Virus record (IMG/VR): IMGVR_UViG_3300036884_000495
Location: 1-64,000 of that record
From: a virus
Length of the DNA stretch: 64,000 nt
Strand: one strand, 5' to 3'
Part shown: positions 2,154-64,000 of the stretch, piece after piece
How the letters are laid out: every line of letters starts with the position of its first letter
Position numbering within the stretch: position 1 is the first letter of the stretch
The notes under the pieces: generated by a model
What the model was told of the DNA's origin: nothing
Database searches by the model: none
What the model saw: only the letters and a program-made list of their open reading frames with translations
Translations under genes and position numbers: made by a program

Positions 2154-2635
2154 GAAGCGGCTTTCTCGCTCGCTGCGGGATGCTGATTGGCGACGTCCTT
2201 ACCAGCTTCGGGTATGGCGGACTTTGGCAGGGCGGCGGGCACTATCCAGGGCCATGCACCGTCCTTGTGCCCGTATGGACGGTCGCCGTCGACCCCGTAG
2301 GTCTCGGCTTCGTCACACCAGACGTCAGGTCAAGACACGCCTATGTGAAGAACCCCAAGGGCAGCCTACTGATTGCGCCCGCGTATGCGGTGGCAGCCGT
2401 CGTTACGATCTTCGCACCGATACCGACGGTCATTACTACGCGGGAGCCTGTTAGCAAGCACAAGATAGTGAAGGCGCCAATACCCCTTCGCACCGTATGC
2501 CGAGAACCCAGAGGGGTGGCAACTGTGACACCAGCAGCCCCCGAGCCTGTGGCGGTGCGCACGCTGGTCCCCGATCCTGTAGGTCGCTGTACCGTAGCCA
2601 AGGATCCCGTAAGCGCGTACGACGGCTGCCCGTAA
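2150..2635 (+). CDS. Pro/Val-rich protein, unknown
   Basis: 161 aa from a GTG start overlapping the preceding TGA (GTGA). After a Gly-rich N-terminus the protein is built from short, loosely repeated Val-Pro-rich segments such as TVAVDPVG, VITTREPV, TLVPDPVG and TVAKDPV, spaced by about 10-12 residues. This suggests an extended beta-strand repeat. It is the last gene before a terminator. The overlap and lack of stops support a real gene, but the unusual composition lowers confidence. Confidence 0.5.
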   Translation: MRSGFLARCGMLIGDVLTSFGYGGLWQGGGHYPGPCTVLVPVWTVAVDPVGLGFVTPDVRSRHAYVKNPKGSLLIAPAYAVAAVVTIFAPIPTVITTREPVSKHKIVKAPIPLRTVCREPRGVATVTPAAPEPVAVRTLVPDPVGRCTVAKDPVSAYDGCP

Positions 2636-2648
2636 TCGTGGGCTAAAA

Positions 2649-2671
2649 AAGAAGGGGAGCAGCCCCTTCTT
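2649..2671. terminator. Bidirectional intrinsic terminator
   Basis: A 9-bp perfect stem (2649-2657 with 2663-2671) closes a 5-nt loop. On the minus strand it is followed by a run of T, so it should mainly end the leftward gene at 2677-3555. It also separates the convergent rightward cluster ending at 2635. Confidence 0.8.
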
Positions 2672-2676
2672 CCCGC

Positions 2677-3555
2677 CTACTCCGCGAGGATGTACGCGTA
2701 GTAGTTGTAGCAACCCAAGAGGGTAACTTGCAGTTTGACTGCAGTCCTCCAGTCGTCGTCTTCTGTGGGCCATTGAATGCGCACGAAGGACGCCGTGAAT
2801 TCTGCCTCGAGGTCGTGCACGCCTTCGAAGATACGCAGTGCCGTCGCCCGCACTTCGTATGCGGTATTTGACGGAACCGCCTGCTCTTGTTCGTCGGACT
2901 GTTGCTTCTGGCAGAAGCCAGAGGCACACGTGTCGATCTCGCACTTAGAAGCGAGCAGGATGCTCAGACGATTCGCCATTCCTTGAAGCGCCCGGTGGGT
3001 CACGTCGCAACCTTCCTCGGCCGCTTTCGTGTACTCAGGGATGTTCTCCAGCACGTACTTGCGAGTGATCTCAGACAGGTACTCCGTGCGCACCTGGGAT
3101 GCCTTTAGGACCATTGCTTGCTCTGTGTCCCAAGCAGTTTGCGCTTCTTGTAGCTGCGCGAGGAGCTCGTTGTGTTTCGATTGAACGCGAGGGTCGGCGC
3201 TGGGAATAGGGTTCATACGATAACCCCAGTCTTGTGTGGGGCGCGTGTACCCCGGAGGCGCGTACGTGTATGAGAGGAACTTTTGGATGTCCTCCTCCAG
3301 ACGCTCGACTCTCTTACGCTCTTCTTCTGCATGTTTCTCTGCGATCGCCTCAAGGGCAACGCACGTACTTTGGGACGTAGCATCCTCGACGTACAGGCTG
3401 GCGTAGCCGCAGGTGAGGAGTTCCTTCTTGGCGGGCTCTGAGAGGCCCGCCAGGTCGTTGTCAGTGAGCTCGACTTCCGTACCCCCGTAGTTGACACAGT
3501 TGCGGGCAACTGCAGATGCCTTCGTGATGCACACTTTGACTTTGATAGTTTCCAC
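2677..3555 (-). CDS. Hypothetical protein with coiled-coil segment
   Basis: 292 aa, GTG start with an AGGAAAG-type ribosome site about 7 nt upstream. Residues about 60-100 are Glu/Lys/Arg-rich and helical, followed by a Pro/Tyr-rich turn and a second helical stretch. Several Cys pairs are present (for example DTCASGFC about residues 208-215). The N-terminal 50 residues (IKVKVC, GGTEVELTDNDL) look like a small beta domain. No known family is recognised. It is the last gene of the leftward run and is preceded by about 200 nt of folded non-coding DNA. Confidence 0.65.
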   Translation of the reverse strand: METIKVKVCITKASAVARNCVNYGGTEVELTDNDLAGLSEPAKKELLTCGYASLYVEDATSQSTCVALEAIAEKHAEEERKRVERLEEDIQKFLSYTYAPPGYTRPTQDWGYRMNPIPSADPRVQSKHNELLAQLQEAQTAWDTEQAMVLKASQVRTEYLSEITRKYVLENIPEYTKAAEEGCDVTHRALQGMANRLSILLASKCEIDTCASGFCQKQQSDEQEQAVPSNTAYEVRATALRIFEGVHDLEAEFTASFVRIQWPTEDDDWRTAVKLQVTLLGCYNYYAYILAE

Positions 3556-60585: not shown

Positions 60586-61753
60586 CCCATTCCTCCTCGA
60601 GTACATGCGTCGTGAGATGTGCAAGGAAGCAATTCCGTTCGCCGTCCCCCCTTCCTTGCGGTCGGCGGCTCAAAACGCCGGCCGATACCTTGCCCCCGCA
60701 GCCCAGAGCGCCGGCAAGTACCTTACGCAATCCGCAGGGAACATCGGCGCGGGTATGGGCGTGGGCGCAGTTGCTGGCGGCCTTGCCGGTGGTATCCACG
60801 GGGCAGTCAAAGGCTATCGAGGCAACCCAGAGGAAGAAGGTAGCGGTGGCGTTATCGGCGCCCTTGGCGGTGGTCTGTCTGGTCTGGGTCGCGGCACCCT
60901 GGCGGGAACAGCCATCGGAGGTGCGGCGGGCTTGGCATCCGGCGGCCGCGGGTCGCAACAGGTGCAGCAGCTTACGAGAGGCGCGTACAACCCCCTTGGC
61001 ATCGCCGCGCGCATGGGACAGCGCCAACTGCACTCCGTGACCGGGCTCGTTCCAGGAGGGGCGCAGCGGGGCTCTCAGGAGTACATCAAGGCGCTCACGC
61101 AGATCAATGCGGGCGGGCTTCAAACAAAAGCGCAGGCGCTTGCCACAGCCTCGAATCCGCAGCGGTCCTTTGTGGGTAAGCTTCTTGGGCGTGCGGCGCC
61201 TGTTGCAGACCCCGCGCACGTCATGCAGGCACACCAAGCATACGATGCCGCTGTACAGGCCGCGCACGCAGGGCAGACAAGCGTCGTGGGCCTGGGACAC
61301 AATCTCGCGGAGAAGGGCCTACGGCGTGGCGGCGCTGACATTCTGCACGCGGCTGGTAGCAACCTAAAGCAGCAGGGTGTCGTCGGCGGGGGCCTTATGC
61401 TCGCGGGCGCCGCCGCTCCTATAGCAATGGCGGCAGCCTCTCAAGATGACCCGAACAACCCCACGAAGGGGAGGAACGTAGGGCAGGCAGCAGGCCAAGG
61501 AATCGCGGGTGCGCTCACGCCCATGATCGGTTCTACGGGCGCACAGCTTATAGGGCGTGGCGGTAGTGCAGTAGGCGGTACAATCGGGTCGGGCATCGAC
61601 AAAATAGTAGGTGCAGTTCGCCGCCCTTCTGGTAGTGGTTTTGGTGCAGGTTCAACCACTCCGGGCGCGCAACCCGACTTGGCCTCGCCGCCCGTACAGC
61701 GTGAGTACACCAACGCCGCTCTCGGCAAACCACCTGAAGGTCTCCAGCTATGA
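60578..61753 (+). CDS. Gly/Ala-rich protein, possible internal virion or ejection protein
   Basis: 391 aa. Glycine-zipper segments (GAGMGVGAVAGGLAGGIHGA, residues about 58-77; ALGGGLSGLGRGTLAGTAIG) alternate with polar helical parts; a second hydrophobic Ala/Gly stretch is near 270-290 (GGGLMLAGAAAPIAMAAAS). This resembles membrane-active or DNA-ejection proteins. It overlaps the portal start (ATGA). Function inferred from composition and position. Confidence 0.6.
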   Translation: MIDPFLLEYMRREMCKEAIPFAVPPSLRSAAQNAGRYLAPAAQSAGKYLTQSAGNIGAGMGVGAVAGGLAGGIHGAVKGYRGNPEEEGSGGVIGALGGGLSGLGRGTLAGTAIGGAAGLASGGRGSQQVQQLTRGAYNPLGIAARMGQRQLHSVTGLVPGGAQRGSQEYIKALTQINAGGLQTKAQALATASNPQRSFVGKLLGRAAPVADPAHVMQAHQAYDAAVQAAHAGQTSVVGLGHNLAEKGLRRGGADILHAAGSNLKQQGVVGGGLMLAGAAAPIAMAAASQDDPNNPTKGRNVGQAAGQGIAGALTPMIGSTGAQLIGRGGSAVGGTIGSGIDKIVGAVRRPSGSGFGAGSTTPGAQPDLASPPVQREYTNAALGKPPEGLQL

Positions 61754-64000
61754 GTTTTTCCTTTGGCAACTTCTCCCTAGGGTCTGCATCGGGCGCAGGG
61801 CGATTAGCCGGCGGAATGACCCGCGGACGCATGCAGGGTGGCAACACTCAAGGGGTCAACTACCCCTCGCCGTTCTTCGATGTAGCGCACACGTATCTGC
61901 CGACAACCGTCAAGCAGATGTTCAAGTTCTGTCGCTACTACTTCATGACGAACCCGTTGATCAACGCGATCGTCTGCAAGCTCTCAGAGTACCCAGTCAC
62001 GGACATCGTGATCGACCACGAAGACCCCGAGGTTGTTCGCCGGTGGACGGAGTACTTCAACGAAACCATTCGCTTTCGGTCCTTTCAGATTGAGTGCGGG
62101 CTGGACTACCACGCGTACGGAACAAGTGCGGTGAGTCTGAGCTTCCCCTTTCAGAAGTACCTCACATGCACCGCGTGTGGCTTCAGCGAACAAGCGCGCA
62201 AGATTCGTGAAAACTGGATATATTCTAGCCACGAATTTCGTCTGACCTGCCCCAAGTGCGGACAGACGGGCGCGGCCACTCCGAAGGACTGGTACTACCG
62301 CGATGCCAGCGCCATCAAACCCGTACGTTGGAACGCGGAGGATATCGAAGTTAGCTACAACGACATCACGGGTGACTGCACGTACTTCTACACGATGCCG
62401 GCCCCCGTCCGTGCAGACGTCACGCTTGGGAAGAAGGACATCGTAGAAACGATGCCCCAGATCTTCTTGCAGGCCATGCGCCAGGAGAAGGGCGTTGTCT
62501 TCAGCAAGGCGAACCTGTTCACGATGAAGCGCCCTGGACTTGCCACGCAAGACCGCGGGTGGGGCACACCACTGATTCTGCCAGTGCTGAAGGACACCTT
62601 CTATCTGCAGATCATGAAGAAGGCCCAAGAATGCGTGGCGCCAGGGACTTTGCTGGAAACGCCAGCAGGCTTGCAGCCCGCCGGTTCTTTGGGCGTGGGG
62701 GATATTGTCCGTAGCCACACGGGCGCTTGGCGCCATATCACACAGAAGAAGCTGCGACCTATGCTGGCCGAGAACGGGGATTATGCAGTCAAGTTTTCCA
62801 TCAGCGGGTTGCGGCAGCTGCCAAGTACGGTCTCAAATACGCACCCGATATACGTACTGCGCAGGAACCAAAAGAATCGCCGTATAGATACGAAGGAGCA
62901 CCGGCGCTCAAGCTATATGCTGCGAAATCCCAGCCTGTACGACCTGCATTTTGTGGACGCCGGAGAGATAGAAGTAGGGCAATATGTCGGGTACCCGATC
63001 GCGCGCAGCAAGGATTGTACGGAAGTAGATCTGGCTTCGTACGCGGGCGACTTCGCGGTTACGGAGAAGTACGTATACAGCGGTGTTAGTCTGGCTACTG
63101 CTACGGCTTTCGAAAGCCTAGAGGCAGGGGAGCGCGTACTTCACAACAATGCAGGGCGTGTAGCAAAGAGGGCTATTGCGGCGGTAGATGCCCCAAAGCG
63201 CGCAGAGCGGTGGCTGGAGTTGGATGAAGACCTGGCATACATCGCGGGCTGGTACGTGGGTGATGGGAGCATCGGTGCGCGCCGCGTGGACTTCTCTATG
63301 GGCCCTGATGACAACGGCGTCGAACTAGAGCAAGCGATTGATCGCGTGTTTGGTTGTGTGTGCACGCATACTCCGTCTGAAACTTCTCGCGGATGGAACT
63401 TGTGCGCATCCGAAACAATCTTTTCCCAGTTCTTTTCCAACTGGATTCCTGGGGGTTCGCATGAGAAGCGAATACCGAGAGAGGTACTAGAGGCACCGAA
63501 TGCCATCGTCCTTGCTTTTTTCCGTGGGTACCTAGAAGCAGACGGGTGGACGCGCGGTGATGGCAGCCGAATAGCTGCATGCCTTTGTAATGGCGGCCTC
63601 GCATATCAGCTGTGGCAGCTGTCGCTTAGTTTGCGCTGCATAGCCACCGTTTCGGAACGAGAGAGTACGGAGACAACCATCACGAACCGCAAAGGGAAGA
63701 AGATGGTGTTAAGTGCCGGGCGTCCCGTGTTCCAATTCGCGGTGAATACAGCGTCTGCCCGGCGCTTGTGCGGCCTAATGGAGGGGCGTGACGTTGACTC
63801 CATTGAAACAGGCAAGAGTGGCTTCTTTCTGGGGGACTACTTTCTAGGGAGAATCAATAGCGTTGAGTGCGTCCCCTGCTCTGAGGTCATTAGCTTCGAG
63901 GTGGAGGAGGAGCACACATTCTGTCTACCTGGCATGGCCACACACAACAGCATTTTACTCGAGCACATAGTCCCCCTGCGTATCTTGTTCCCACAAGCCG
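61750..64000 (+). CDS. Portal protein, interrupted by an intein (3' end beyond window)
   Basis: The frame is open from ATG 61750 to the window end. The N-extein (residues 1-294) has YPSPFFDVAHTYLPTTVKQM, ALIC-like helices and WGTPLILPVLKDTFYLQIMK. The C-extein resumes with SILLEHIVPLRILFPQ, which together give a typical portal stem motif (LKKAxE-xxLEHIVPLRI). A four-Cys zinc ribbon (Cys140, Cys143, Cys167, Cys170) is inserted in the N-extein. Portals form the dodecameric DNA gate of the head. The intein must be spliced out for a functional protein. Confidence 0.8.
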   Translation, partial: MSFSFGNFSLGSASGAGRLAGGMTRGRMQGGNTQGVNYPSPFFDVAHTYLPTTVKQMFKFCRYYFMTNPLINAIVCKLSEYPVTDIVIDHEDPEVVRRWTEYFNETIRFRSFQIECGLDYHAYGTSAVSLSFPFQKYLTCTACGFSEQARKIRENWIYSSHEFRLTCPKCGQTGAATPKDWYYRDASAIKPVRWNAEDIEVSYNDITGDCTYFYTMPAPVRADVTLGKKDIVETMPQIFLQAMRQEKGVVFSKANLFTMKRPGLATQDRGWGTPLILPVLKDTFYLQIMKKAQECVAPGTLLETPAGLQPAGSLGVGDIVRSHTGAWRHITQKKLRPMLAENGDYAVKFSISGLRQLPSTVSNTHPIYVLRRNQKNRRIDTKEHRRSSYMLRNPSLYDLHFVDAGEIEVGQYVGYPIARSKDCTEVDLASYAGDFAVTEKYVYSGVSLATATAFESLEAGERVLHNNAGRVAKRAIAAVDAPKRAERWLELDEDLAYIAGWYVGDGSIGARRVDFSMGPDDNGVELEQAIDRVFGCVCTHTPSETSRGWNLCASETIFSQFFSNWIPGGSHEKRIPREVLEAPNAIVLAFFRGYLEADGWTRGDGSRIAACLCNGGLAYQLWQLSLSLRCIATVSERESTETTITNRKGKKMVLSAGRPVFQFAVNTASARRLCGLMEGRDVDSIETGKSGFFLGDYFLGRINSVECVPCSEVISFEVEEEHTFCLPGMATHNSILLEHIVPLRILFPQA
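62632..63948 (+). other. Full-length intein with LAGLIDADG motifs inside the portal gene
   Basis: 439 codons, in frame with both exteins. Block A: CVAPGTLLETPAGLQPAG with Cys1. Block B: SNTHPIYV with His71. Homing-endonuclease motifs: YIAGWYVGDGSIG (about 203-215) and FFRGYLEADGW (about 296-306), the two LAGLIDADG helices with their acidic residues. Blocks F/G: HTFCLPGMATHN, ending in His-Asn before Ser(+1). All splicing residues appear intact, and no stop codon interrupts it. Confidence 0.9.

Follow-up and report, generated by a model that had tools for sequence, protein, structure and literature searches.

Three predicted inteins in the portal gene of an uncultivated virus, with probable change of target within the gene

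The window analysed here comprises bases 1-64000 of the 117,624-base record of an uncultivated virus. Close to its end, at position 61750 of the plus strand, starts a portal reading frame that is still open at the last base of the window. Read on the contig, this frame reaches its stop at 68034, amounts to 2094 codons and contains three inteins, I1, I2 and I3, with I1 alone falling wholly inside the window. The initial annotation had reported a single intein: it is real, but it is the first of three, and the portal frame runs beyond the window. Excision of I1, I2 and I3 in silico leaves a portal of 696 residues that resembles its intein-free relatives. Taken as a whole, the explanation that we favour, drawn from sequences and structural models, is that these are very probably class 1 self-splicing inteins whose LAGLIDADG endonucleases would promote homing into empty alleles, with changes of target.

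The host gene and its surroundings

The portal N-extein (61750..62631, plus strand, 294 codons of the reading frame), with which 31 intein-free portals align, is followed by I1 at what we name site a (62632..63948, plus strand). The second extein begins with SILLEHIVPLRILFPQA (63949..64000, plus strand) and continues beyond the window to contig 64089. I2 (contig 64090-65424, L002:3091-4425) has 445 amino acids, with junctions D↓C..CN↓T, the arrows marking the splice points, and the extein that separates it from I3 ends at contig 65577. I3 (contig 65578-67119, L002:4579-6120; 514 amino acids, M↓C..HN↓S) includes, between its endonuclease and its C-terminal splicing part, a helix-turn-helix (HTH_17, E 1.3e-6); the C-extein extends from its end to the stop at contig 68034. 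The exteins separating I1 from I2 and I2 from I3 thus consist of just 47 and 51 residues.

The spliced 696-residue sequence matches 51 distinct IMG/VR loci, mostly without insertion, at 42-87% identity. The portal protein annotated in Salmonella phage Arash shares 31% identity with it, and matching proteins also occur in three Vibrio phages. An AF2 model of L005, an intein-free relative that is 81% identical, has moderate confidence (pLDDT 70), and the 50 PDB matches listed for it are all portals, portal-vertex, neck or connector structures, including that of Haloferax virus HFTV1 (8qsy, E 2e-6) and the HK97 and lambda portals. Because PHROGs and Pfam gave no convincing match for the portal itself, its identity rests on the fold and on phage Arash, and these two support the original proposal that the host gene encodes a predicted phage portal. 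In the N-extein, window positions 62167-62265 (portal residues about 140-172) encode four cysteines in two CxxC pairs, invariant in 31 portals, forming a zinc-ribbon-like insert.

The genomic neighbours of the portal gene include Pol A, UvsX-like, DnaB-like, ligase and baseplate J-like genes, consistent with a large tailed phage; a tRNA scan found none. Directly 3' of the portal lies an SNF2/helicase-like gene (contig 68031-69548, L002:7032-8549). A fourth intein interrupts another gene of the contig (92799-93986, L003:12799-13986; 396 amino acids, DVSMG↓C..HN↓SKVPFD). Its host is a 938-codon open frame, contig 92262-95075, which we take to resemble a head-maturation protease; PHROGs gave no support for this identity.

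Structure of the first intein

I1 consists of 1317 bases, that is, 439 in-frame codons with exact boundaries: it starts with TGC (Cys1, 62632-62634), ends with CAC AAC (His-Asn, 63943-63948) and is followed by AGC (Ser+1) at 63949. Its N-terminal splicing half, approximately 62632..63006 on the plus strand, comprises Cys1 and a block B, SNTHPIYVL, with His71, and its C-terminal splicing part, EVISFEVEEEHTFCLPGMATHN (63841..63948, plus strand), holds blocks F and G (both from alignment A3). Between them lie the first LAGLIDADG motif, LAYIAGWYVGDG (63232..63267, plus strand; conserved G206/G212), and the second, VLAFFRGYLEADG (63508..63546, plus strand; PF14528, E 1.2e-5), with cores GWYVGDG and RGYLEADG that keep both acidic residues. 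Pfam recognizes LAGLIDADG_3 (PF14528) in I1 with 25.9 bits against a cut-off of 22.5, while the match to Hint_2 is weak. The catalytic set is present (Cys1, block B His71, His438, Asn439 and Ser+1), and Cys1 and His71 are invariant across 14 aligned inteins. Aligned by eye, I1 has Ser at the block B Thr position (B:7) and at the block F Asp position (F:4); Thr B:7 and Asp F:4 are the usual assisting residues, typical rather than defining (for their roles, see PMC4031507).

The AF2 model of I1 (pLDDT 89.6, pTM 0.88) finds as its best PDB matches by Foldseek complete inteins with an endonuclease, TliVMA (7qsu, E 2.7e-19) and PI-SceI, and its endonuclease fold also matches I-DmoI. A profile of eleven related inteins likewise matches PI-PkoII (6e-22), TliVMA and PI-SceI. 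With these three inteins (7qsu, 1vde, 2cw7) I1 shares the architecture of a LAGLIDADG endonuclease inserted in the splicing domain, but it is only about 10-16% identical to them and they reside in other host proteins. Coordinates, Pfam and fold therefore agree with the features first read from the DNA (a 439-codon insertion with Cys1, a THPI block B, paired LAGLIDADG motifs and HN followed by Ser), and confirm I1 as an intein of class 1 type that contains a LAGLIDADG endonuclease with two motifs and is predicted to splice and to cut.

The junction is as sharp in the exteins. Intein-free portals with 43-81% identity align unbroken over it, between KKAQE and SILLE, as the initial annotation had suggested checking; 85 intein-free portals read through site a. 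Since the contig is a metagenome assembly, an intein wrongly joined into the portal gene might be feared. This is scarcely credible, for a homologous intein occupies the same site and frame in seven independent contigs (L053, L056, L151, L167, L168, L171 and L176), and the exact splice residues are found on both sides of I1. That the site is invariant, as had been proposed, is true of its upstream side, where Glu occupies position -1 in 85/85 intein-free portals, but not of +1, mostly Ala in intein-free portals and Ser in carriers. Its placement in a conserved portal helix agrees with a helix modelled by AF2 at residues 276-307, but pLDDT is only 33-46 over residues 281-320, the portal model being weak around sites a and d. 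Conservation around site a is indeed high (94th percentile), sites d, b and c standing out less (percentiles 68, 77 and 51).

Seven insertion points in related portals

When similarity and later scans are combined, related portals display seven insertion points, lettered in order of discovery: a (KKAQE↓S), b (WRxD↓T/S), c (GGM/L↓S/T), d (SDPY↓T), e (GLDYH↓C), b' (RRWR↓C..HN↓SD in L151, two codons upstream of b) and c' (GGLSY↓C..HN↓SGSN in L176, two codons downstream of c). At each of them, intein-free portals continue without interruption. Inteins were present in 11/88 distinct related portals collected by similarity; as such scans favour uninterrupted portals, this is not a frequency. In one search for relatives, the best 80 of 209 were covered. 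L151, first brought in by an intein-profile scan, was matched again by a scan for the site-a junction pattern, which added L167, L168, L171 and L176, together with the partial L166 and L175. Three further candidates of that scan, L165, L169 and L173, were discarded, being portals without an intein in which a Cys naturally occupies the pattern position. A junction-pattern scan for site b returned the known carriers plus three chance matches, and no new carrier. As sole query, I3 had no match in IMG/VR and no plasmid match.

Three contigs have portals with three inteins, in different combinations: a, b and c in the window phage (L002), a, d and b' in L151, a contig of 193 kb, and a, d and c' in L176. 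The nearest portal relatives of the window phage are L024 (87%), with an intein at site b only, and L005 (81%), which is empty. Homologous inteins that sit two codons apart (b/b', c/c'; L151, L176, L002) could have arisen by a shift of the insertion point or by independent invasions.

The ends of these inteins vary. At site b they finish with CN, VN or AN, without the penultimate His, and in some other site-a alleles the penultimate position is Lys. Class 1 phage inteins without penultimate His exist, and one such still splices, according to a mycobacteriophage survey (PMC5050341). Among other alleles, the site-b intein L055:397-1631 misses an internal stretch and changes frame, through decay of the allele or through misassembly; the site-e inteins of L141 and L144 (about 310 amino acids, Gly-Asn end, Cys+1) are apparently of a different type; and one site-d intein belongs to a contig that shares a bin with a Candidatus Eisenbacteria MAG.

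Inteins were also seen outside this group of portals. The unrelated portals L062-L069 (MASKDWSAS...) have one or two inteins each, at other positions, with junctions R↓C..KN or RN↓TWWF and K↓C..N↓TNPW, L068 being without the second. L070, a terminase-like frame as judged by its sequence, has two inteins (282-1436 and 2412-3248), the first related to I2. I1-related inteins are found in other genes of the viral contigs L154, L155, L156 and L163; by sequence, the hosts are trypsin-like protease, radical-SAM-like and sugar-epimerase-like, and that in L154 is without clear identity.

Signs of selection and of splicing

Frames remain intact over diverged intein alleles, with pN between 0.22 and 0.39 and synonymous sites saturated; for I1 against L056, pS is 0.75 and pN 0.22. 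Saturation of dS precludes a dN/dS ratio for the inteins. In the same comparison the endonuclease part of I1 is as conserved as the whole (68% vs 69%). The residue that must act as nucleophile downstream of the intein tells a similar story. At site a, position +1 is Ser in 8/8 carriers, against Ser/Thr in 15/85 intein-free portals (Fisher 5e-6, relatives counted as independent); at site b it is Thr/Ser in 5/5 carriers against 3/83 (Fisher 1e-6, relatives again counted as independent), intein-free portals having mostly Ala or Asn/Pro. The bias runs in the direction that splicing requires, though relatedness inflates the p-values.

It could be argued that the insertions are degenerate, the precursor being cleaved or inactive while another, intact copy of the portal gene supplies the function; the partly non-canonical assisting residues and the frame-broken site-b allele of L055 would fit. 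We find this very improbable: the contig of 117,624 bases has a single portal match, the catalytic nucleophiles are all present, the inteins are under purifying selection, and the +1 nucleophile tracks intein presence. We infer that the portal inteins splice and that their endonucleases are active.

Origin and probable transfer of the inteins

A tree of 25 inteins, with paired support values, places the site-a inteins in a monophyletic group (99/99) and the site-b inteins in one clade (99/98) to which b' is sister (100/100); a, b, b' and d together make one clade (99/99). The c' intein of L176 joins I3 first, and the site-c intein of L054 next (96/95, 99/98). One intein lineage thus appears to hold sites a, b/b' and d of the portal gene, though the clade could break once inteins from other genes are included, and a second, that of I3 with its extra helix-turn-helix, holds c and c'. 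Given this common clade of inteins at a, b/b' and d, the first lineage probably changed target within the portal gene at least twice. An origin of I1 and I2 by duplication inside the window phage was discarded, as the tree puts each with alleles of its own site from other phages.

In the portal tree, by contrast, L002 (the window phage), L053 and L056, which carry the site-a intein, do not come together, and well supported branches force at least three changes at site a, with L056 on a long branch. Such scatter means transfer, or else an older gain with repeated loss. I1 and the L056 allele share 69% amino acid identity, with only 56% between their N-exteins, and the comparison with L053 is reversed (intein 55%, N-extein 62%). 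For I1 and L056 the simplest reading of these identities is recent transfer between portal lineages, the alternative being loss from an old gain; any direction given to the transfer is likewise read from the sequences. Co-conversion around site a, looked for between the window phage and L024, L005, L053 and L056 (L007, out of register, was left out), is suggestive only: against L024 there is a slight dip on the right side, 0.63 vs 0.67-0.87 elsewhere.

This weak signal leaves some room for another account, in which I1 splices but its homing endonuclease is inactive, the intein being inherited vertically with repeated loss. Endonuclease decay does occur in the family, as in L053 (site a), where Asn replaces the acidic residue of the second motif (GYLEANG). 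I1, however, retains both acidic residues, its endonuclease part is conserved like the rest, and the site-a inteins form one clade even though the portals that carry them fall in separate parts of the portal tree. We hold vertical inheritance to be unlikely, while granting it more weight than the other alternatives, and prefer active homing.

In the scheme based on active homing, the 2094-codon frame would be translated as a single precursor, from which each intein would excise itself in the class 1 manner, with an acyl shift at Cys1, an attack by Ser/Thr+1 and Asn cyclisation. Assembly of the portal ring would have to wait for the 696-residue portal. Once released, the endonucleases would cleave portal alleles that lack an intein in relatives infecting the same cell, and repair of the cut allele would copy the intein in. 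One may also imagine that the inteins do more than persist as parasites, three splicing events per subunit delaying the assembly-competent portal or making it conditional, on redox state or temperature for example, and thereby setting the time of capsid nucleation in these large phages, but this we regard as very improbable.

Comparison with known inteins and significance

Phage inteins are mostly discussed in DNA-metabolism enzymes and terminases. The suggestion that portal hosts are uncommon needs revision in its turn: portal inteins as such are already known, in mycobacteriophages and in Eggerthella phage LE2-3, and they are frequent in the present lineage. Six portal inteins (PORT), likewise in a phage portal gene, were reported in 2016 in cluster C1 mycobacteriophages, a table giving all six cases under one portal entry, with no multiple inteins per portal found there (PMC5050341); that lineage is unrelated to the window phage, whose portal carries three. 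The intein of the Eggerthella phage portal (QXJ36669) has full-length similarity to I1 (21%, E 3e-9), but it is a single intein of 398 amino acids in a different portal family (NPVMRA↓C..HN↓CLEVY). Several inteins in a phage packaging gene are also known from the terminase TerL of crAss-like phages, which differs in having two Hint-Hop inteins and stop-codon recoding (PMC7886860). Haloarchaeal MCM resembles the window portal in its several close intein sites, in horizontal spread and in the limit that the +1 residue sets to invasion; by contrast, its four neighbouring sites belong to a cellular replication helicase of archaea, not to a virion structural gene, and the study of it found no evidence of joint homing (PMC10643990). 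In the literature searched, the coverage of which was partial, we found no report of three inteins in one virion structural gene.

Within one lineage, a virion structural gene has been invaded at seven points, and three inteins occur together in each of three independent genomes. The existence of empty, single and triple alleles, together with homologous inteins at neighbouring sites, makes target-site switching directly testable in a phage gene, and the same allele series makes interference between neighbouring inteins and selection of the +1 residue testable as well. The portal gene is thus a natural system for the study of intein coexistence and target change within one gene.
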